A stretch of 41,293 nt of DNA from a virus: positions 1 to 41,293 of IMG/VR virus record IMGVR_UViG_3300041955_000408. One strand, 5' to 3'. The notes beneath the pieces are model-generated. The model searched no databases. It worked only from the letters and a program-made list of their open reading frames with translations, and was not told where the DNA came from. A program made the position numbers and the translations under genes. Below are positions 2,141 to 40,752 of this stretch, in pieces (the first letter of the stretch is position 1; every line of letters begins with the position of its first letter).

Positions 2141-2644
2141 ATGAAGTTTACGGGCACGCTCCGGGCAGCACGGATCGACATGCAGAAGTACCGCGCGGCG
2201 CTGGACGCTTGCCTGCGAGAGGCGATTTCCCAGGGCCTCATGGAGTGGCTGGAAGCCACGGTGATCGCGGAAGTGCCTGTTTGGAGCGGCGCGTCCCGGG
2301 CGACCTTCTTGGCCCTGGCCCGCAACATCGAATACAACATCCCGATCTTCCCCGTGGTTCCCAGCCGTGTGGGCCAAGGGGTGTCGCAAAGCAGCGGTAC
2401 GCTGGAGGCGAATGCCGGGACGGGCCGTTACATCTTCAGTTACCAGACAACGCTGCCGTGGCTGATCGTCAACGAGTATTTCGACGCCACGCAATGGGGC
2501 TTCCACTTGAAGAAGCCCGGTCCCTACCACTTCCAGTCCAAGGGGGAGGCGGCCTTCCGCAAGTTTGCGGAAAGGGTCCGTTTGCCCGACCCCTTCACTT
2601 GTTTGAAAACCATCAAGATCAAGGTGTCGGCCAATGTCGGATGA
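2141..2644 (+). CDS. Uncharacterised tail protein upstream of tape measure
   Basis: Encodes 167 residues. The ATG at 2141 is preferred over an upstream TTG in the same frame because TGGAGGG lies 8-9 bases before it. The protein begins with a helical N-terminus (YRAALDACLREAISQGLMEWLEAT), then a segment of aromatic and beta character (NIEYNIPIFP, RYIFSYQTTLPWLIVNEYF) and a lysine-rich end. The C-terminus overlaps the tape measure start by 11 bases, suggesting translational coupling. Size and position are compatible with a tail completion or HK97 gp10-like minor tail protein, but no diagnostic motif is visible. Confidence 0.6.
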   Translation: MKFTGTLRAARIDMQKYRAALDACLREAISQGLMEWLEATVIAEVPVWSGASRATFLALARNIEYNIPIFPVVPSRVGQGVSQSSGTLEANAGTGRYIFSYQTTLPWLIVNEYFDATQWGFHLKKPGPYHFQSKGEAAFRKFAERVRLPDPFTCLKTIKIKVSANVG

Positions 2645-5600
2645 AATCCTGCAACAACTTGGCTTCGACGCCTCGGCGGCTCTTAGTGCCCTGGAGAAGA
2701 TTGACGCCGGCCTCGGCAGTTTCGAGGCCAAGTTGAACTCCGTCGCCGAAACCATGTCGTCCTGGAACTCCCGGGCCGGTGCGACGGTGCAAATCCTCAA
2801 GGACATCGCCTCCAACGCCAACACGGCGGCTGCGGCGATGTCCAAGCTGCAAAGCGCGTTCAGCAACCAGAAGGGCCCCCGCAGTCCTAAGACGCCCGGC
2901 AGTGGCGGCGGTGTTGACGATAAGCCGGTCAAGCCCAACGTGGACCCCAGCAAGATCAAGGAGGCTGAGGACGCGGCGTCCAAGTTCGTGCTGACTTGGG
3001 AGACCTTGAGTCGCGTAGTTGCCACGCAGTTCATCGTTCGGGCCATGAGCGCGATTCGTGACGCCACGAAGGAGGCGCTGGAGTCCAATGTCGCCTACGT
3101 GAAGAGCCTAGCGGAGGTCCGCGCGATCTCGCCCGAGAAAGACATTGGCGCGCTGAGCGAACGGATGAAGGAGCTTTCCCGCCAATTCAATGTGCCCCTG
3201 CAACAGGTCGTCGAGGCGCAATACCAGATAATTTCCAACCAGTTTACCACGACCGCGCAGCAGACGGACGTGATGACGGCCGCCTTGAAGGCGTCGAAGG
3301 TCGCAATGGTGGACGCCGGGCAGGCGGCGGAGATCGTTGCCGGTGCCTTGAATGCTTTCGGCTATGATTCCAGCCACGCCGACGAGGTTGCGGCGAAGCT
3401 CTTCAAGACGGTTGGCCTGGGGCACCTTCGCTTTGCCGACTTGGCCAATATCATCAGCCGGGTGGGCCCGGTGGCCCGCGAGTTGGGCGTCAGCTTCGAC
3501 GAGTTGCTGGCCGCGGTGGCGAGCCTCTCGATCACGGGCACCAAGCCCGCGGAAGTGGCCACGGGGCTGCGGTCGGCGATGGCGGCGTTGTTCAAGCCTT
3601 CCCGCGATTTGCGGGAGGAGTTGAATGGCCTGAGCGCCGAGCAGATGGTGGCCGTGTACAAGCTGACCGGCTCTTGGGCGAAACTCCGCGGAGACACCAA
3701 CGGCACCATCAACGACCTGGCGAAATTGGTTCCCAACCTTCGCGCCATTCCGACCGTTTTGCGGGAGACGGGGACTGGGGTTGACGCCTTTGCGAAATCC
3801 TTGCAGGAGATTCATGGGGCTCCGACGGAGTTCGGCCCCGAAGTGATGCTGGCCCGCAGCACGGACGTGGAGAAGTACACCAGCGAGATGAACAAGCTCA
3901 AGGTCTTCATGGCGACGGACCTTGGGGACACGATGGTCAAGCTCACGAATGCGTTCATCCAGACTGCGGGTGGCATGGACAGCATGATTGCCGCCTTCAA
4001 GGCGATGGAGCCGGCGATTGCTGTTTGCGTCACGGCCTTTGCCGCCTTCATCGGCATCGTGATGATGGGCAAGGCCAATGTCCTACTGATGAAGAATGGC
4101 CTTGATCTGGCCACGCTGTCAGCGAGGAACTTCTTGGGGGTTCTCGGACTGTTTGCGGCGGCCTCGATCGTCGGTGAAACGATCGGCAGTGCTCTTGACG
4201 CGCAGATCAAGGCCGGCATCGAACGTGTCGAGGCCGCGGAGAAGCAGGCCGAGGACCGCCGTAAGGCCCTGGACACCCAGCGGGCGGACGCCTTGAAACA
4301 GGCGAACGAGGATCGCGTCCGCGGCGCGTTGGAGGGCATCAACAGCCTCACAGAGGCGTACCACAGGCAGATGGAAGCCGCTCGGGACGACAACCGTGAG
4401 TGGCAGCAGGATACGCGGGCCACGATGGAGTCTCTGATCGGCGCTCGCCAGAAGATGGTTACGGAGTTCAAGTCGCTGGCGCAGAAGAGCGACGAGGAGA
4501 TCGTGGCCTCGCAGAAGCGGGTCCGCGACGACCAGGCGAAGTTGTCGGATCGACGCTTCAAGTTCGGTGAGGAAGATAAGGGCCCCCAGCAGCAGTTCCG
4601 CGATTACATGGCTCGTGCCGGGGACTTGGGCAGGGTTAGCTGGCACGAGCCTTTTACGTCCTATGCCGGCGGCCAACGCTGGAACATCCGCGAGAACGGG
4701 CCGCCTCGGCAGCCCGAGGACATCCAGCAGGACATGCAGCGGCTCAAGCGGGCCGAGCAATTCGCCGAGGAAGCCAAGGCGATCGCGGCACGGCAGCACG
4801 ACACGGCCGGCGTCCGTGACGCTGAGGCCGAGGTCGAGCGGATCATGGCCGGCGAGATCACGCTGGAAAGACAGTTGCAGTCCGCCGAGAAGCAGCGCAG
4901 CGAGGCCGCCGCCAAGGCCGCCGCCAAGGAGGAAGAGAACGTCGAACGGATGCGGTCGTTGATGAAGAACATCACGAAGGAGACAACCTTCGTCAACGAC
5001 AAGGGCGAACCGCTAAGCGCGGAGAAGCGCGCCGCGCAGATGCAGAAGGCCATGACGGACATGACCGAGTTGCAAAAGCGGGCCTTTGAGGGTGGCGGGA
5101 AGCCCGATGTCTCCGCCTGGCTCAATTTCGAGGAGTTCAAGCGGAAGCTGCAAACGTCCTGGCAGGAAGCGGTTCCGACGCACGTCCAGATCGAGGGGCT
5201 GCACGTTCCGGCGGAGAAGCTCGTCGCGCTGAACAAGCAGATCAGCCAGGGCGTCGGCATCCTGGATGTCGCCGTCCGGCTTGCGCCGGACCCCTCCAAG
5301 CTCAAGGGACTTTCGCCGGAGGCGGCCCTGCAAGCGGTCGGCCAGCAGATCAAGGCGACAGTGACGAATGTTGACAGCCTGAATCGCCAGTTGCAGGCGA
5401 CGGCCGAGCTTCAGAAGAAGGCCGCTGCCAGCGCGCGTGAGCTTGCCGGGGCTTTCGAGTACGAGGACTCCATGCTGGGCCACCTGCACAAGGCTTTGCA
5501 GGGCGTCAGCGCCGCGGATGCTCCAATATCCGCGAACATTGCCATCCGGGAAGCCAACGCCCTCCGCGCACGTATCGAGGGGGCTGCGCAGGCTCCCCAG

Positions 5601-32907: not shown

Positions 32908-33783
32908 ATGCTGGACCGTCTCCAACAATATGACGCCTACGCCCTGCCGCTGGATCGCATCTACTACGATGCCGATTTCAACTGCCGAGGCGAGTTCACG
33001 CTTGAGTCCGTGATGGACTTGGCGGAGAACATCCGGCTGCGCGGCAAAGGCGTTGAGCTAAAGGGGCTGGACTTCCCGGTGGTCGTCCAGCCAATAGCGG
33101 ACATGGCAGACAAGCAGCCGGCGGGTTTTGATTATCGGCTGCTGGCGGGTCATCGCCGCTTTCAGGCGATCAAGACCTTCCTCAAGTGGCCTTCCATTCC
33201 GGCCATGATCCGCGAGGGGCTGAGCGACCGGGAGGCCCGGATGCTCAATTTCGTCGAGAACCTGGAACGCAAGGACCTGAACATCCTGGAGGAGGCACGA
33301 GCACTCGGCCGGCTGTACCCGGACGGCGTACCTCTGCGGGTGGCCGCCAAGGAGATCAAGCGGCCGACCCGGTGGATTCACGCCCGGCTGCGGCTGCTGA
33401 CACTCCCGGAGGAGGTCCAGCGCCTCGCCGCCACGGGGCTGCTGGCCGCCACGAACATGGAGACCTTGGCCGACTTGAAGAGCCCCGAGGCTCAGATTGA
33501 GGCGGCCCGGAAGATTGTCGAGCTTCGGCGGGAGCGTGGCAAGAGCGCCTCCATGAAGCGTTTGAATCCGAAGTACCGCCGGAAGTTCCGGCCACGTCCG
33601 ACGAAGCCTGAAATCAATAAGATGGTCGCCAAGATGCTCGGCCGGGGCATTGAGGGCCTTGGGCCGCGGATGGGTGCCTGGTGTGCGGGATACATCAGTG
33701 ATGCCGAAATCGTGGAAGACATCAGGAACGCCGCTCTAAGTAATTCTGCCGTTGTTGATGTGTCAGATGGAGGGACAACATGA
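32908..33783 (+). CDS. ParB-like DNA-binding protein 2
   Basis: Encodes 291 residues. A ParB/Srx-type N-terminal domain includes the CTP-binding type LLAGHRRFQAIK (GHRR at 81-84) and NFVENLERKDLNILEEARAL (114-133), followed by an HTH-like segment (VAAKEIKRPTRWIHARLRLL), the canonical ParB pattern. It differs from the other ParB-like protein (296 residues), which lacks GHRR. Its last 15 codons lie inside dispersed element copy 2 (AALSNSAVVDVSDGGTT), so the element may have replaced the original C-terminus. The start has weak RBS support. Confidence 0.8.
   Translation: MLDRLQQYDAYALPLDRIYYDADFNCRGEFTLESVMDLAENIRLRGKGVELKGLDFPVVVQPIADMADKQPAGFDYRLLAGHRRFQAIKTFLKWPSIPAMIREGLSDREARMLNFVENLERKDLNILEEARALGRLYPDGVPLRVAAKEIKRPTRWIHARLRLLTLPEEVQRLAATGLLAATNMETLADLKSPEAQIEAARKIVELRRERGKSASMKRLNPKYRRKFRPRPTKPEINKMVAKMLGRGIEGLGPRMGAWCAGYISDAEIVEDIRNAALSNSAVVDVSDGGTT
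33734..33775 (+). repeat. Dispersed element, copy 2
   Basis: CTCTAAGTAATTCTGCC-GTTGTTGATGTGTCAGATGG-AGGGAC overlaps the end of the ParB-like gene and lies 4 bases before the next ATG at 33780. In this copy, GGAGGG at the element end provides the ribosome site of the following gene. Compare 24741 and 39366. Confidence 0.7.
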
Positions 33784-34280: not shown

Positions 34281-34637
34281 ATGTTCGCTCAACTATGCTG
34301 CTATTTTATCATGTGCCTATTCGCGTCCCTGCTGGGGACCTTCATGGGCTTGTATCGCCGCGCAGTTGTGCGGGCCCGGAAGTCCGAGGACGAGATCACG
34401 CAGGTCCTCATTTCGGCTGACAACCAGGCGATGCGCCTGATGACTGAGATCGCCGATGCGGGGGTGAAGTATGCACGGCTGGACAACATTTGCCAGGCGT
34501 GGAAGTCGTATGCGATCGGCTACGAAGTCTACTGCGAGTCAACTTACGAGGGAGACGAGATCGGCATCGTTAACGCCGGCTCCGAGATCGCCAAGGCCCG
34601 TGCCAGGCTCCATTCCCTGGGTCAATACGACGCATGA
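34281..34637 (+). CDS. Small membrane protein with coiled region
   Basis: Encodes 118 residues. The N-terminal MFAQLCCYFIMCLFASLLGTFMGLYRR is one hydrophobic membrane span with positive charges following, then a helical cytosolic part (DEITQVLISADNQAMRLMTEIADAGVKYARLDNICQAWKSYA). ATG 34281 has TTGGAG upstream and lies just after the structured RNA. Its end overlaps the polymerase start (ATGA). It could recruit polymerase to the membrane or be a holin-like product; neither is shown. Confidence 0.65.
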   Translation: MFAQLCCYFIMCLFASLLGTFMGLYRRAVVRARKSEDEITQVLISADNQAMRLMTEIADAGVKYARLDNICQAWKSYAIGYEVYCESTYEGDEIGIVNAGSEIAKARARLHSLGQYDA

Positions 34638-36775
34638 GCAAGCTGTATCTCGATACCGAGACGTGCGGCCTGCACAGCATGATGGTGCTGTTGCAGTACG
34701 CTGAGGATGAAGGCCCGATCAACCTCCACGAGGTCTGGCGGCGGCCAATCCACGAGACGCTGACCCTGATCGAATGGGTCTGCCAGCACACGGTCGTAGG
34801 CTTCAACCTGGCCTTCGACTGGTTCCACATTGCTAAGGTTTACACTGTTTTCCGCCTGGCGAATCCTGACTGGATTCCCGCGGAGCACATCAACGAGATC
34901 GCTCTGCTGGAGCCCAAGGGGCAGAGCGGGCCCTGCGTCAAGCCGGCCTGTGCTCTGGACCTGATGCTCCATTCTCGCAAGGGGCCGTATCAATCTCTCA
35001 TGGCCCGTGAAGACATTCGCATCAAGCGAGTGCCTTCCTCTCTGGCCTACGCCCTCGCTAAAGAGCTTGAGGGCCTTGTCCAATTGGACAACATCTACTT
35101 CGCCCGGTCTGCTGATCCCAATGCGCCCAAGTGGCAGGTCTTTGACCGCCGGGACCGTTTTGGTGACGTTGACACCGACTTCAAGGATGTCGTGCTCAAG
35201 TTCAACCCGGCCGGCGGTCTCAAGTTCCTCGCTGAACACGCGATGGGCTTCAAGCCTAAGTTCCACTTCAAGGACGTAGAGCCGCCCACATCCTGGCGGC
35301 CCTATGAGCTGGGCTATGCGCCGACGGCGTTGGCGGTGTCCAGCCCCGAGCGGAATTGGGAAGTCTGGGGCCGCAAGAAGGGCCGCCCCACGATCAACGT
35401 GGCCGTGGAAGAGGTCGTGACGGACCCTGGCATCCTGCTGGATACCGAACATGACGACGAGGATCGCACCACCAAGCCCGCGTCTGGGGAAGACAAGCTT
35501 TTGGGCTACGCCTGGCCGGCGGTGATCGGCAAGCATGTCGAGCACTGGGCGACCCGGACGGACGCCCGCGAGTACGCCAACGATGATATTGTTTACACGC
35601 GCGCTTTGGACAAGCATTTTGGCTACCCCACACCGGGGGACAACGATTCGACGCTGGCTTGCATGGTCCCCGTGGTCCGCTGGCGCGGATTCGAGATCAA
35701 CAAGGCGGGCATGAAGGAATTGTTGGCCAAGGCCAAGGCCGTGGTCGCCGAAAGCCCGGTGAACATCAACAAGCCCGCCGAAGTCCGCGCCTACATCACG
35801 GCGGCGATGGACACCACAGAGGCAATCGTCTTAGCTGACTCCACCAAGAAGTCCAACCTGGAAGCGATTAGCAACTGGGAAATCGAGACTCGTGAACCCT
35901 GCGGCCGGTGCGAGGGGGCCGTACAGTCGCTTGAGACACTCGGACTGGCACCGGGAGCCAGCGTTGACGACATCGGTGCGGCCTATCGTCGCTTGGCGAT
36001 GGAGTACCACCCTGACCACGGTGGCAATGCCGAGGATTTCAAGCGACTTCACAACGCCTACGAAGTGTTGGAACGTGGCCGAAGTTGTGCCCGCTGCGGG
36101 GGCACCGGCTTCCTGGAGCCCGGCAAGCATCCGGCTGCGAGGCGATCCAAGGAAGTGCTGGCGGTCAAATTCGCGGCCAAAGCGATCGAGCTATATGAGA
36201 AGCTGCTGCTGGCTGGGAAGTTTCACGCCTCCTTTGTAGTGATCGGCACCCTCTCGTCCCGCATGGCTGGCGCGGACGGTCTCAATCCGCAAGGCATCAA
36301 GCACGGTAAGGACGTGCGCTGCATGTTCCCCCTGTACTGGGACGGCATGATCCTCTGCGGCGGCGACTTTGATTCATTCGAGGTCACAATCGCAGATGCC
36401 GTCTACAACGATTCGGCCTTGCGCAAGGACTTGACCACCAAGGGGCCATGTCCAAAGTGCGCCGGGACGGGCATTGAAAAGAAGAAGGGGATACCGTGCG
36501 CCGAGTGCGAGACGACCGGCATGACGCCACAGAAGCTCCACGCCCTGTTCGGCATGGCCTTGATGCTGGCCCCTTTGAACGTCCACGACGAACTCATGGT
36601 CGTGGCCAACCCGTCGATTGTCCACGACATCACGGCGAACGTCCGCGAGGTCGTGGAGTCCTTCCGCGACAAGGTGCCGCTGGTGGGCATGACTTGGTTC
36701 GAGGGGATGGAGAACTGGGCGGAGAAAAAGGGCGGTGCGGCCCCGGTCAAGATTCGCGCCAAGGAAATGATGTGA
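34634..36775 (+). CDS. Family A DNA polymerase with J-domain/zinc insertions; fingers apparently missing
   Basis: Encodes 713 residues. The N-terminal 3'-5' exonuclease motifs are YLDTET (Asp7/Glu9), VVGFNLAFDWFHI and EYANDDIVYTRAL (Tyr314/Asp318). Then a J-domain (about 429-482, HPD at 459-461) sits between CGRC (423-426) and CARCGGTG (485-491). Polymerase palm resumes: SSRMAGADGLNPQGI, motif A GDFDSFE (578-583), a second zinc-ribbon-like insert (Cys606, 609, 622, 625), KLHALFGMALM and motif C HDE (651-653). The fingers with motif B (O-helix Lys/Tyr) are absent; only about 70 residues separate motifs A and C, where about 175 are usual. Activity is therefore doubtful. It overlaps neighbours on both sides. 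Confidence 0.85.
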   Translation: MSKLYLDTETCGLHSMMVLLQYAEDEGPINLHEVWRRPIHETLTLIEWVCQHTVVGFNLAFDWFHIAKVYTVFRLANPDWIPAEHINEIALLEPKGQSGPCVKPACALDLMLHSRKGPYQSLMAREDIRIKRVPSSLAYALAKELEGLVQLDNIYFARSADPNAPKWQVFDRRDRFGDVDTDFKDVVLKFNPAGGLKFLAEHAMGFKPKFHFKDVEPPTSWRPYELGYAPTALAVSSPERNWEVWGRKKGRPTINVAVEEVVTDPGILLDTEHDDEDRTTKPASGEDKLLGYAWPAVIGKHVEHWATRTDAREYANDDIVYTRALDKHFGYPTPGDNDSTLACMVPVVRWRGFEINKAGMKELLAKAKAVVAESPVNINKPAEVRAYITAAMDTTEAIVLADSTKKSNLEAISNWEIETREPCGRCEGAVQSLETLGLAPGASVDDIGAAYRRLAMEYHPDHGGNAEDFKRLHNAYEVLERGRSCARCGGTGFLEPGKHPAARRSKEVLAVKFAAKAIELYEKLLLAGKFHASFVVIGTLSSRMAGADGLNPQGIKHGKDVRCMFPLYWDGMILCGGDFDSFEVTIADAVYNDSALRKDLTTKGPCPKCAGTGIEKKKGIPCAECETTGMTPQKLHALFGMALMLAPLNVHDELMVVANPSIVHDITANVREVVESFRDKVPLVGMTWFEGMENWAEKKGGAAPVKIRAKEMM

Positions 36776-37365
36776 GATACCGCACCGTCTATGCCGATCC
36801 GCCGTGGCCCTACGACAACGTAGATGGGCCGCGTGCAGCACCGGACCACCGCCCCAACAGTTGGGACGGCGTGACGGGCAGCGTCAGTTCGGCGAACCGC
36901 TACGGTGCCATGTCCATCGACGAGTTGAAGGCCCTGCCGGTTGGGTCGCTCGTCGGGTGGCCAGCCCACCTGTATCTGTGGACGACCAACTCCTTCATGG
37001 TGGAGGCCCACGCGATTGCACGGGCCTGGGGCTTTGAGCCCAAGACGATCTTGACCTGGGTCAAAGTCAAGCCGGATGGCAGCCCGTCGATGAAGGCTGG
37101 CTACTACTATCGCGGTGCGACCGAGCACCTCCTGTTTGCCGTGCGCGGCAGCCTGCGCCTGGCGGGTCCCTGCCGGCCGACCGCCTACCTCTTGCCGCGG
37201 GCGGCGCATAGCGTCAAGCCCGACTGCTTCTATGACCTGATCGAGGAGCAGAGTCCCGGCCCCTACCTGGAACTGTTCGCCCGCCGACCGCGGGCGGCTT
37301 GGGACCAGTGGGGCAATCAGATCAATTCCACCGTCACCTTTGAGGGCGACCGATGCGCTACATAG
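36772..37365 (+). CDS. MT-A70-like DNA N6-adenine methyltransferase
   Basis: Encodes 197 residues from GTG 36772, which overlaps the polymerase TGA (GTGA), with AAGGA upstream. The catalytic DPPW is at residues 9-12 (YADPPWPYDNVDG), followed by LYLWTTNSFMVEAHAIARAWGFEP, typical MT-A70 elements, and VKPDCFYDLIEEQSPGPYLELFARR at the C-terminus. Phage MT-A70 proteins methylate DNA adenine and may counter restriction. The third methyltransferase in the window. Confidence 0.88.
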   Translation: MRYRTVYADPPWPYDNVDGPRAAPDHRPNSWDGVTGSVSSANRYGAMSIDELKALPVGSLVGWPAHLYLWTTNSFMVEAHAIARAWGFEPKTILTWVKVKPDGSPSMKAGYYYRGATEHLLFAVRGSLRLAGPCRPTAYLLPRAAHSVKPDCFYDLIEEQSPGPYLELFARRPRAAWDQWGNQINSTVTFEGDRCAT

Positions 37366-37658
37366 ACCACTATGAGATTGAGTTCCGCACGCCGGGAGCC
37401 AAGTGGGAGCACGCCGGCAATGTCTATCCGCACTATGAGTGGACGATCGAGCGTCCGTGGTGGCTTCTGGGTCTGGTCCGTCGGCCGCGGATAACGAATT
37501 ACGCCCTGGCCGCCTTGACCGCCAGGATGCACGCCAACAATGCCGCCATCATGTACGTCACGACGGGTCCGACCACGTACTTCCGCATCTGGCAGTGGAC
37601 CCGCCGCGGGTATCGGCTGCGCAAGCGTTTGCTGGATGCCTACGAGGGTAAGGTATGA
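37353..37658 (+). CDS. Hypothetical protein
   Basis: Encodes 101 residues starting 12 bases before the end of the methyltransferase gene. It is Trp/Tyr/Arg-rich (MRYIDHYEIEFRTPGAKWEHAG, HYEWTIERPWWLLGLVRRPRI, YFRIWQWTRRGYRLRKRLLDAYEG). No family recognised. It overlaps the nuclease gene by ATGA. Confidence 0.65.
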   Translation: MRYIDHYEIEFRTPGAKWEHAGNVYPHYEWTIERPWWLLGLVRRPRITNYALAALTARMHANNAAIMYVTTGPTTYFRIWQWTRRGYRLRKRLLDAYEGKV

Positions 37659-38068
37659 CCACCCAGATCAAGAAGCCGATCCACGGCCCGGAGTGGCATA
37701 TCCAGAAGGATGTCATACGGTATCTGGCTTCCCGCGAGTGGCATGTCGAGCGGATGATCGGTAACGCTTTTCAAATGGGCATCCCCGATCTCTATGCTGC
37801 ACATAAGAAGTGGGGCACCCGCTGGATCGACGTGAAGCAACCGAAGAAATACGGCTTCACCCGCGACCAGAAACGCAAGTGGCCAATTTGGGAGTCCTTC
37901 GGCATCGGCATCTGGATTCTCACGGCTGCGAACCAGGAAGAGTACGACAAACTCTTCAAAGCGCCAAACTGGCGCTCCTACTGGAAGAAGTCCTGGGGTC
38001 AAGTCCCGACTCAAGCGGACATCGACCGGATGCTTGACGAGCTAGTGCGCGAAGGCGAATCCGCCTGA
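37655..38068 (+). CDS. VRR-NUC-like nuclease
   Basis: Encodes 137 residues. A PD-(D/E)XK-like core is visible: MGIPDLY (Asp45) followed by RWIDVKQP (Asp59, Lys61), with N-terminal helix EWHIQKDVIRYL. This fits the small VRR-NUC/Holliday-type phage nucleases acting in recombination or replication. No partner subunit is needed for this family. It is coupled to the upstream gene by ATGA. Confidence 0.75.
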   Translation: MTTQIKKPIHGPEWHIQKDVIRYLASREWHVERMIGNAFQMGIPDLYAAHKKWGTRWIDVKQPKKYGFTRDQKRKWPIWESFGIGIWILTAANQEEYDKLFKAPNWRSYWKKSWGQVPTQADIDRMLDELVREGESA

Positions 38069-38113: not shown

Positions 38114-38608
38114 ATGCGCCTGCAACTCAAACATACGCGCTGGCAGTGCCTCGTCGCATCGTTTGCGATGGCCCTGGACTTGCCACTGGACGACGTGATC
38201 CTGGAGCTTGGTCACGATGGCGGCGAGGTTCTCTATCCAGCGTTGCCCGAGCCCTTGTGTCGCCGCGGGGTTCATCCACAAGAGTTGATCGACGTGTGCC
38301 GCGCACACGGCTGCACCGTCACCTATCTGGAACTGTTCCCCTGCCTGAAGTCTAAGCCCGATCAAGCGGGTGTTCTCGCGTTCACAACCAAACAGGCGTG
38401 GTTGCGCTTCACAGAGGCGATCAAGACCACGCGAGGCGTAATCGGCGGCGTGACGCCTAGCGGCAAGGGTCATGCCGTGGCCTACGAGTATGGCCACATC
38501 TATGACCCGGACGGCTGGATGTATGACTACTCTCCGGTCGCGTGCGAGCAGTCTGGATTCTTCACGCAGCACCTCTGGTACTTGGACAAGATCGGGGGTG
38601 CCGCATGA
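38114..38608 (+). CDS. C39-like papain-fold cysteine peptidase
   Basis: Encodes 164 residues. The N-terminal WQCLVASFAMALDLPLDDVI places Cys12 after Gln11, as in C39-like proteases. A GHAVAYEYGHIYDPDG segment supplies His120 and Asp131. The fold is that of peptidase C39-like proteins that cut at double glycine or other peptides; phage members of unknown substrate are common. Its end overlaps the sigma-like gene. Confidence 0.7.
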   Translation: MRLQLKHTRWQCLVASFAMALDLPLDDVILELGHDGGEVLYPALPEPLCRRGVHPQELIDVCRAHGCTVTYLELFPCLKSKPDQAGVLAFTTKQAWLRFTEAIKTTRGVIGGVTPSGKGHAVAYEYGHIYDPDGWMYDYSPVACEQSGFFTQHLWYLDKIGGAA

Positions 38609-39276
38609 GCGACAACATCGCGCGCAACAACGAATTGTACCCCGCGGTCTTGGCCGGCGACCGTGCTGCCTGTGAGGCCATGATCCTCAATAACCTTGGC
38701 CTTGTGGTTGTCAAAGCAGACGCTCTGATTTGCCTGATACCGAAGGTTGCATACCTACGTGATGATCTGGTCAGTGCCGGAAACATCGGACTGGTTCAAG
38801 GCGTCAACAAGATCGAGGAGCATCACGTTTGCATGGAGGCAGTCAACAGTTGGCTGGGACAGAGCATCACGAATGAAATGCTCCAGTTGTTGCCTGTCGA
38901 ACAACCGATCCAGGTGCCACGACGCTCGGACGACCTTGCACGCGAAAACGGCTGCCCTATCGAGATGCCGTCAGTGTTCAATGCCTTCCCTGAAAACCTG
39001 GAGACCTGCTCGGAAGACGGCGCGGTCGATTTACGTGACACCATTGAAGCCTGCTGCGAGTCTGAGGCCGAGCGTGAGTGCCTGCGGCTTCGGGAGGAAG
39101 GATACACGTTTACCGAGGTCAGCGACATGCTCAGCATTCCGCTTGTGGGTGTCAAGCGCATGTTCGATCGTCTGAAGGCGCGAGTCCTGGGCCATTGGAC
39201 CAATCCTCGGGATGTCGCACCTTGGCGTGCATTCCACCAGGCCAGGGCACACAGCAAGGCATTGAAACAACGATGA
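38605..39276 (+). CDS. Sigma-70-like transcription factor
   Basis: Encodes 223 residues from ATG 38605, overlapping the peptidase stop. Residues about 30-95 (LVVVKADALICLIPKVAYLRDDLVSAGNIGLVQGVNKIEE...NSWLGQSITNEM) resemble sigma region 2, and the C-terminal AERECLRLREEGYTFTEVSDMLSIPLVGVKRMFDRLKARVLG is region 4 with an HTH, after RDTIEACC. Phage sigma factors redirect host RNA polymerase. It could drive late or tail genes and may recognise the dispersed element found in three places; that is speculation. Confidence 0.75.
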   Translation: MSDNIARNNELYPAVLAGDRAACEAMILNNLGLVVVKADALICLIPKVAYLRDDLVSAGNIGLVQGVNKIEEHHVCMEAVNSWLGQSITNEMLQLLPVEQPIQVPRRSDDLARENGCPIEMPSVFNAFPENLETCSEDGAVDLRDTIEACCESEAERECLRLREEGYTFTEVSDMLSIPLVGVKRMFDRLKARVLGHWTNPRDVAPWRAFHQARAHSKALKQR

Positions 39277-39609: not shown

Positions 39610-40752
39610 ATGGCAAAACGCGAGTTTCTCCAACTAGCCGATCATTACGACCCCTCCAAGTCGAACGTCGCGGGGTGGTACATCAGCGAGAAGCTGGACG
39701 GCACCCGCTGTTTTTGGGACGGCGGCCTCAGCCGCGGGCTCCCTACGGAATCTGTTCCCTGGGCCAGCGTCACGGACCCGAAGACGGGCGAGCGGAAGGC
39801 CAAGATCAAGCCGATTGCCACGGGCCTCTGGTCCCGTTACGGCAACCCGATCATGGCCCCGGACTGGTGGCTCAATCGGCTGCCGGCGTGCCCGTTGGAC
39901 GGCGAATTGTGGGCGGGTCGCGGCAAGTTCCAACTCTGCCGGTCGATCTGTGGCGGCGACACCCCCGACGAGCGATTCGACAAGATCGTTTTCGCGGTCT
40001 ACTCGACGCCGCCGCTGGGTGCAATCTTCGGCACCGGGCATATCAAGAACTCCAACATGGTCTGCCAGGTCGATTACCTGACGACGGAGGCGTGGATCAG
40101 GAAGCGGCTCAACGAGCGTGGTGAGCGCTTCGAGGGCGTCCCAGTCCCGAAGCGTTGCCTGGGCGATCATTACGAGTTTCTTACTGCCGATGAGCCCTTC
40201 GGCACTGAAGTGGCCATGCTCGGCAAGGCCCTGGAGAACACGGACGCCTCGATCTGCTACCTCCATCCGCAAACCAAGCTGATCGACATACCCGGCCATG
40301 CCAGCGACCAGGTGGAAGCCTACCTGCAACGGGTGCTGGACCAGGGTGGTGAGGGCGTGGTGGTGCGTAACCCCAACGCCATCTGGATGCCCAAGCGGCA
40401 CCGCAGCGTTCTCAAATACAAGCCATTCTCGGACGCCGAGGGCCGGGTCGTCGGGTTCACCAGCGGCCGGGAGACAACCAAGGGCAGCCGGCTCCTGGGC
40501 AAAATCGGTGCCCTGATCGTGGACTACCAAGGTAAACGGCTGGAATTGTCCGGCCTGACCGACGCCGAGCGCGAGTTCCTGAATCCCGACATGGCCCGCG
40601 GGGCGTCGGAGAAGCCGGGCCAGGACATGCCGGTGTTCTACCAGGGCAAGTCCTTCAAGGTCGGGCAGGCCGTCACGTTCAAGTACCGGGAGTTGTCCGA
40701 CGACGGCATCCCGAAAGAGGCCCGCTATTGGCGGCGCAGGGACGTGGAGTAA
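39610..40752 (+). CDS. ATP-dependent DNA ligase
   Basis: Encodes 380 residues. Nucleotidyltransferase motif I SEKLDGTR (Lys28) near the N-terminus, motif III PLDGELW (near 97), motif IV GGEGVVVRNP (near 246) and motif V VLKYKPF (near 268) are all present, followed by an OB-fold-like domain (GRVVGFTSGRE, VGQAVTFKYREL). This is a short phage-type ATP ligase sealing nicks in replication or repair. It directly follows the 59-residue gene, and its TAA overlaps the ATG of a following frame. Confidence 0.92.
   Translation: MAKREFLQLADHYDPSKSNVAGWYISEKLDGTRCFWDGGLSRGLPTESVPWASVTDPKTGERKAKIKPIATGLWSRYGNPIMAPDWWLNRLPACPLDGELWAGRGKFQLCRSICGGDTPDERFDKIVFAVYSTPPLGAIFGTGHIKNSNMVCQVDYLTTEAWIRKRLNERGERFEGVPVPKRCLGDHYEFLTADEPFGTEVAMLGKALENTDASICYLHPQTKLIDIPGHASDQVEAYLQRVLDQGGEGVVVRNPNAIWMPKRHRSVLKYKPFSDAEGRVVGFTSGRETTKGSRLLGKIGALIVDYQGKRLELSGLTDAEREFLNPDMARGASEKPGQDMPVFYQGKSFKVGQAVTFKYRELSDDGIPKEARYWRRRDVE

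Follow-up and report, generated by a model that had tools for sequence, protein, structure and literature searches.

A predicted J-domain within a putative zinc knuckle in the thumb of family A phage DNA polymerases

Gene content of the locus

The window, that is, the whole stretch of viral DNA analysed here (41,293 nucleotides, the IMG/VR record IMGVR_UViG_3300041955_000408), carries a gene for a family A phage DNA polymerase which comprises a 3'-5' exonuclease domain, a thumb with an inserted J-domain and part of the palm (Table 1). The exonuclease domain is intact, and motifs A (GDFDSFE) and C (NVHDE) of the polymerase domain are both present. The inserted region reads ...EPCGRCEG-[AVQSLETLGLAPGASVDDIGAAYRRLAMEYHPDHGGNAEDFKRLHNAYEVLERGRS]-CARCGGTG..., with the J-domain enclosed by two CxxC pairs, the second of which is part of a DnaJ-type CxxCxGxG motif. 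The other genes of the replication region encode a ParB-like protein (32908-33783), a DNA methyltransferase (36772-37365; phrog_359) that looks MT-A70-like, a protein with a weak endonuclease match (37655-38068), a weakly matching sigma-factor-like protein (38542-39276) and an ATP-dependent DNA ligase (39610-40752).

Table 1. Features of the polymerase gene in the window (coordinates of the window).
Feature	Position	Strand	Evidence and remarks
Family A phage DNA polymerase gene	34634..36775	+	713 aa (P0001); phrog_17 match, 5.7e-11
CGRC, first cysteine pair of the putative zinc knuckle	35900..35911	+	Sequence; kept in alignments A1-A4
J-domain, helices I-III, without helix IV	35933..36076	+	PF00226, 1.3e-11; search of the record itself; AlphaFold helices
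HPD tripeptide, residues 459-461	36008..36016	+	Sequence; HPD in 5/5 polymerase J-domains
CARCGGTG, second cysteine pair	36086..36109	+	Sequence; kept in alignments A1-A4
CPKCAGTG...CAEC, second DnaJ-like zinc pair, after motif A	36449..36508	+	PF00684, 9.8e-5, under the curated cut-off
Junction of the in-frame loss of ~206 aa (fingers, motif B)	36560..36562	+	Comparison with full-length relatives

Identification and position of the J-domain

DnaJ proteins activate the host chaperone DnaK through their J-domain. The corresponding Pfam family, PF00226, matches residues 434-481 of the window polymerase (E 1.3e-11) with 44.9 bits, the curated cut-off being 27.8 bits, and the J-bearing relatives described below score 32.6-48.6 bits, all above that cut-off. 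A six-frame search of the window record recovered the domain at E 2.0e-14 and no second J-domain. The nearest structures by sequence in a PDB search are solved DnaJ-type J-domains (E 3e-9), with SV40 large T at E 1.3e-4. The AlphaFold model of the polymerase of L019, an intact relative (pLDDT 87.2, pTM 0.83), has the overall fold of Pol I (Foldseek; Z up to 21.6), including a recognisable exonuclease and palm, and contains J-domain helices at residues 429-439, 447-461 and 469-484, as well as short strands beside the cysteine pairs. The same hairpin is present in the model of the window protein (helices 430-435, 444-458 and 466-483), and in both models helices II and III form an antiparallel hairpin with the HPD tripeptide (residues 462-464 in L019) between them. 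Both its sequence and its predicted fold identify the insert as a true J-domain. A chance or low-complexity match as the source of the signal was ruled out by the Pfam score, the recurrence of the domain and the selection acting on it, and a fusion by frameshift or misassembly was likewise discarded, given that four other distinct polymerases have the J-domain in frame at the same point.

In the profile alignment produced by hhalign, residue 515 of the L019 polymerase falls on residue 626 of E. coli Pol I; this places the insert in the thumb, directly ahead of the long helix I. It comes after a short helix, STKKSNLEAI, which we read as the equivalent of STSEEVLEELA of Pol I. The preliminary description of this DNA had noted a J-domain with its helices and HPD, placed it between two CxxC pairs as if inserted into a zinc ribbon and assigned the whole block to the region between exonuclease and palm. 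All of this agrees with the present results, including the coordinates, with the thumb as the more exact location. Furthermore, two of the checks which it proposed, structure prediction and a search for other polymerases with the insert, gave, respectively, the predicted hairpin of helix II, HPD and helix III in the window protein and L019, and four further distinct polymerases with the same insert, HPD and helices II and III being kept in all five. Neither of the outcomes which it had named as refuting, a fold lacking the hairpin or homologues with HPD and helices not conserved, was encountered.

Recurrence of the insert and the zinc knuckle

Scanning IMG/VR with the alignment of the polymerase family yielded 80 loci. 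Five distinct polymerases, namely, those of the window, L002 (identical to L010), L019, L021 and L023, carry the J-domain at exactly the same site, and in each of them both CxxC pairs are intact. Approximately 65 other polymerases have no J-domain, and at the site of the insert nearly all of these display two CxxC separated by a short loop, the second often being CxxCxGxG; a few have a longer loop or no knuckle. Relatives that are 74-87% identical to the window polymerase read EPCGRCEGxPGCARCGGTG, with nothing between the cysteine pairs; for instance, L003 (87% identity) reads EPCGRCEGKPGCARCGGTG at the insert site. Because the J-less relatives show the bare knuckle at this very site, the J-domain is indeed nested within a pre-existing zinc knuckle, the cysteines of which are putative zinc ligands. 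Given that the knuckle without a J-domain is far commoner than the knuckle with one, it probably has a role that is independent of the J-domain.

J-less relatives were found in metagenome-assembled contigs of Planctomycetota (including Pirellulales), an Anaerolinea and a Pontiellaceae. No J-bearing polymerase was among the strong matches in 392 Planctomycetota genomes, the only such match being an already known polymerase (L178) without a J-domain; the other matches in these genomes are weak and partial and lie in frames of ~900 aa, as expected of cellular Pol I. A search with a degenerate DNA pattern for HPDHGGNAE(D/E)FK recovered L021 and L023, all other matches being small phage proteins of no relation. 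Within 6 kb, no gene was found to co-occur with the J-domain.

The polymerases of L021 and L023 carry two extra CxxC pairs ahead of the J-domain, which brings the total to four, as in the cysteine-rich region of DnaJ. Together with the weak match of the palm zinc pair to PF00684, this resemblance would fit the J-domain and the CxxCxGxG knuckles forming an embedded class A DnaJ with client binding of its own. We consider this very unlikely: the J-domain of the window runs directly into CARCGGTG and thumb helix I, with neither the G/F region nor the C-terminal beta-sandwich domains of DnaJ, and the knuckle stands alone in most members of the family, as it does in the polymerases of HMO-2011-type phages.

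The zinc pair after motif A is another variable module, ranging from none to several CxxC across the relatives; it is absent in L007 and in the clade of L021 and L023, and there are four CxxC at that place in L048 and L061. An insert of ~46 aa in the fingers (GTVVRREK...VAHIATISLENGVEVRKEIVVPEEY) occurs sporadically, in L033, L043, L047 and L055, on branches different from those of the J carriers. Free-standing J proteins were also encountered. An open reading frame of 151 aa in L131 encodes a J-domain at its C-terminus, preceded by three CxxC motifs, i.e. a free-standing zinc-plus-J phage protein, which is possibly the kind of protein that could donate such a module. In Alteromonas phage vB_AcoS-R7M (L215), a stand-alone dnaJ gene (2513-3172) lies within a recombination and replication operon which encodes a RecA-like ATPase, SSB, a RecB-like exonuclease, DnaJ and a helicase.

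The fingerless copy in the window

In every full-length relative, the fingers and motif B lie in a stretch of about 200-250 residues between HALFGMAL and MLAPLNVHDE; the window protein lacks this stretch entirely. The deletion junction is in frame and has an overlap of 3-5 bases. No fingers sequence was found elsewhere in the window, PF00476 has no match in it, no second family A polymerase is present in the 41-kb record, and the junction was not found in other IMG/VR records. As fingers and motif B are missing, the window copy as written cannot polymerise. The designation of the gene product as a polymerase in the preliminary description is, accordingly, appropriate for the four homologues (L002/L010, L019, L021 and L023), which have both the J-domain and the fingers, but not for the copy on which it was based. 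The dN/dS of the window gene (0.11-0.15) equals that of its intact relatives, suggesting that the deletion is recent, that the contig is chimeric, or that a non-polymerising role has been kept, the exonuclease domain being intact. The chances that the copy in the window is dead or misassembled, such that the finding in this record does not concern a working polymerase, seem to us evenly poised: the loss of ~206 aa at a junction with a 3-5 bp overlap, the missing PF00476 match and the uniqueness of the junction all point to such a copy, whereas the preserved frame and the dN/dS typical of intact genes speak for a maintained one. The finding of the J-domain is untouched by either outcome, as it stands in the four intact homologues.

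Evolution of the J-domain module

On the polymerase tree, the distribution of the J-domain requires five changes, at least four of which are forced by supported branches, and taking the J-domain as the ancestral state would cost 17 losses; a single vertical origin was rejected (p-AU 1.8e-7). With about five gains or 17 losses, the J-domain is therefore an optional and probably laterally moved module. In the best tree of the five polymerase J sequences and 63 other phage J-domains, the former group together, albeit with weak support (38/96), and they are 49-66% identical to one another, whatever the kinship of the polymerases that carry them. Within the clade that contains L002 and L019, the J-domains of these two are more diverged than any other stretch of 46 codons tested. 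The simplest account of these patterns would be a J module of one origin that has been exchanged between polymerase alleles by recombination.

The sporadic occurrence of the J-domain, its divergence between L002 and L019 and the presence of other sporadic modules in the same gene (the zinc pairs after motif A and the 46-aa fingers insert) could also be explained if the thumb loop were a hot spot tolerant of insertions, where recombination shuffles small modules, zinc knuckles and J-domains among them, and if the J-domain folded without any selected chaperone role in replication. However, a passenger of this kind would be expected to lose HPD, whereas HPD and the DnaK-facing residues are kept in all five J-domains at 49-66% identity. 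Moreover, pN in the J codons is 0.20-0.28 and pS 0.49-0.83, pN being well below pS in every pair, at roughly a third, which signifies purifying selection and argues for function. We thus regard a passenger module as unlikely.

A possible function in DnaK recruitment

All five polymerase J-domains retain HPD, Tyr25, an arginine at position 26, Phe47 and Lys48 (E. coli DnaJ numbering), and none retains Arg22. Tyr25, the basic residue at position 26, HPD, Phe47 and Lys48 belong to what we take to be the DnaK-binding face of E. coli DnaJ; the role of the HPD aspartate in DnaJ has been described (PMC7289447). The Rki protein of phage RB43 is a functional partner of host DnaK, so that a phage J-domain can work with this chaperone (PMC3486835). 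From the kept residues of the DnaK face and the precedent of Rki, we infer recruitment of DnaK in cis. Binding of DnaK by the polymerase J-domain is predicted and appears likely; the reading that we favour, in which the domain brings host DnaK to the polymerase in cis as an aid to folding or to remodelling of the replisome, is to our mind about equally probable and improbable, and a role in replication would be part of it.

The mechanism that we envisage starts from a real J-domain inserted in the loop that links the two CxxC pairs of a thumb zinc knuckle of the DnaJ type, which would close the base of the insert and thereby make the J-domain a compact outgrowth on the thumb. Helix II and HPD would bind ATP-loaded host DnaK and stimulate the DnaK ATPase in the vicinity of the polymerase; DnaK would then clamp onto the polymerase itself or onto a partner (helicase, primase or a host protein) and, once clamped, might help folding, replisome assembly or remodelling. 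The J-domain is an optional accessory, with most relatives replicating without it and the module probably moving between alleles. That it is not essential follows from its absence in most close relatives and from the lack of another J protein in the records of these relatives. Of the 40 records searched, which may be fragments, 35 have no PF00226 match, which speaks against supply in trans. The suggestion of the preliminary description that the insert replaces a separate chaperone finds no counterpart here, as nothing is visibly replaced: most close relatives have neither the J-domain nor another J protein in the records searched. Its further idea, that DnaK is recruited so as to load the replisome, is plausible. 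Several observations weigh against DnaK recruitment, namely, that no gene within 6 kb travels with the J-domain, that helix IV is absent and Arg22 not kept, that the knuckle is far commoner without the J-domain and that the window copy is fingerless.

Recruitment of DnaK could also serve an end other than replication, the J-domain competing with host DnaJ for DnaK or blunting a DnaJ-dependent defence, with the polymerase as its mere carrier. Phage sensing by bNACHT25 requires DnaJ (PMC12169576), Rki interacts with DnaK and stabilises sigma32 (PMC3486835), and a sporadic accessory distribution fits an arms-race gene; yet a low-copy replication enzyme would make a poor titrating agent, and there would be no need for so exact a location in the thumb knuckle. 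Host takeover or counter-defence therefore seems quite improbable. In its most far-reaching form, recruitment in cis would make DnaK an ATP-driven cofactor of a phage replicative polymerase, loaded by the thumb J-domain onto the polymerase or a DNA-bound partner so as to remodel or recycle the replisome, i.e. a chaperone counterpart of the thioredoxin of T7, encoded by a J-module that passes between polymerase alleles. We put this forward as a tentative and rather doubtful extension.

Zinc knuckles in phage polymerase thumbs are already known; the open-licence literature yielded no account of a DNA polymerase with a J-domain. Phage replisomes, as with lambda P, and viral initiators such as SV40 T antigen are acted upon by chaperones, but a DNA polymerase that carries an Hsp70-activating domain of its own was not encountered in this literature. 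If such an enzyme works, the single polypeptide makes it testable whether DnaK acts on the polymerase itself, and J-less sister polymerases that are more than 80% identical are ready-made controls. The findings may also offer a clue to the DnaJ-type zinc motif, so far unexplained, of the abundant marine phages of the HMO-2011 type, and suggest that polymerase thumbs are exchange sites for accessory modules.

Comparison with known systems

The closest parallel to the knuckle is found in HMO-2011-type marine phages, where a 'partial DnaJ central domain' containing two CxxCxGxG motifs separates exonuclease from polymerase in every case (PMC9038755, PMC6918029). The polymerase of Puniceispirillum phage HMO-2011 (gp12) is, like that of the window, a family A enzyme with a DnaJ-type zinc motif in the thumb, between the exonuclease and polymerase domains, where in the window CGRC...CARCGGTG forms the DnaJ-type pair and PF00684 scores under its cut-off. 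However, the HMO-2011 sequence has the knuckle without a J-domain or HPD, its similarity to the window family is remote (hhalign 96.6%), and by sequence its knuckle precedes STSKTNLELLES (the equivalent of H2), in the previous thumb loop, that of the window following STKKSNLEAI. Although hhalign paired their cysteines, the two knuckles were not treated as orthologous inserts, because they lie on opposite sides of the STSKTNLELLES/STKKSNLEAI helix. A tblastn search with P0001 in phage records gave no match. Among the nearest characterised phage polymerases by tblastn are those of Schitoviridae (N4-like phages), e.g. Erwinia phage Pastis, which have neither CxxC knuckles nor a J-domain.

Phage-encoded J-domains with HPD are known from Rki (057w) of RB43, which binds host DnaK (PMC3486835), and other stand-alone phage J proteins, but these are free-standing, whereas the J-domain of the window, with ~30% identity to the RB43 protein, is nested in a DNA polymerase. 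SV40 large T likewise has a J-domain built into a viral replication protein; however, it is a helicase and initiator of an animal virus, its J-domain is N-terminal, and homology is limited to that domain. Replication of phage lambda needs DnaK, DnaJ and GrpE, and release of a partner could proceed as with lambda P (PMC3640518). The T7 polymerase recruits host thioredoxin as a processivity factor (PMC5984650). Its thioredoxin-binding domain, in gp5, likewise brings in a host protein and is inserted in the thumb of a phage enzyme of family A, but the alignment of helix I assigns the two inserts to different loops, and they differ in fold and partner. The J insert, before helix I at Pol I residue 626, is thus not at what we take to be the position of the T7 loop; furthermore, the T7 insert is needed by its phage, whereas the J insert is optional in the window family.
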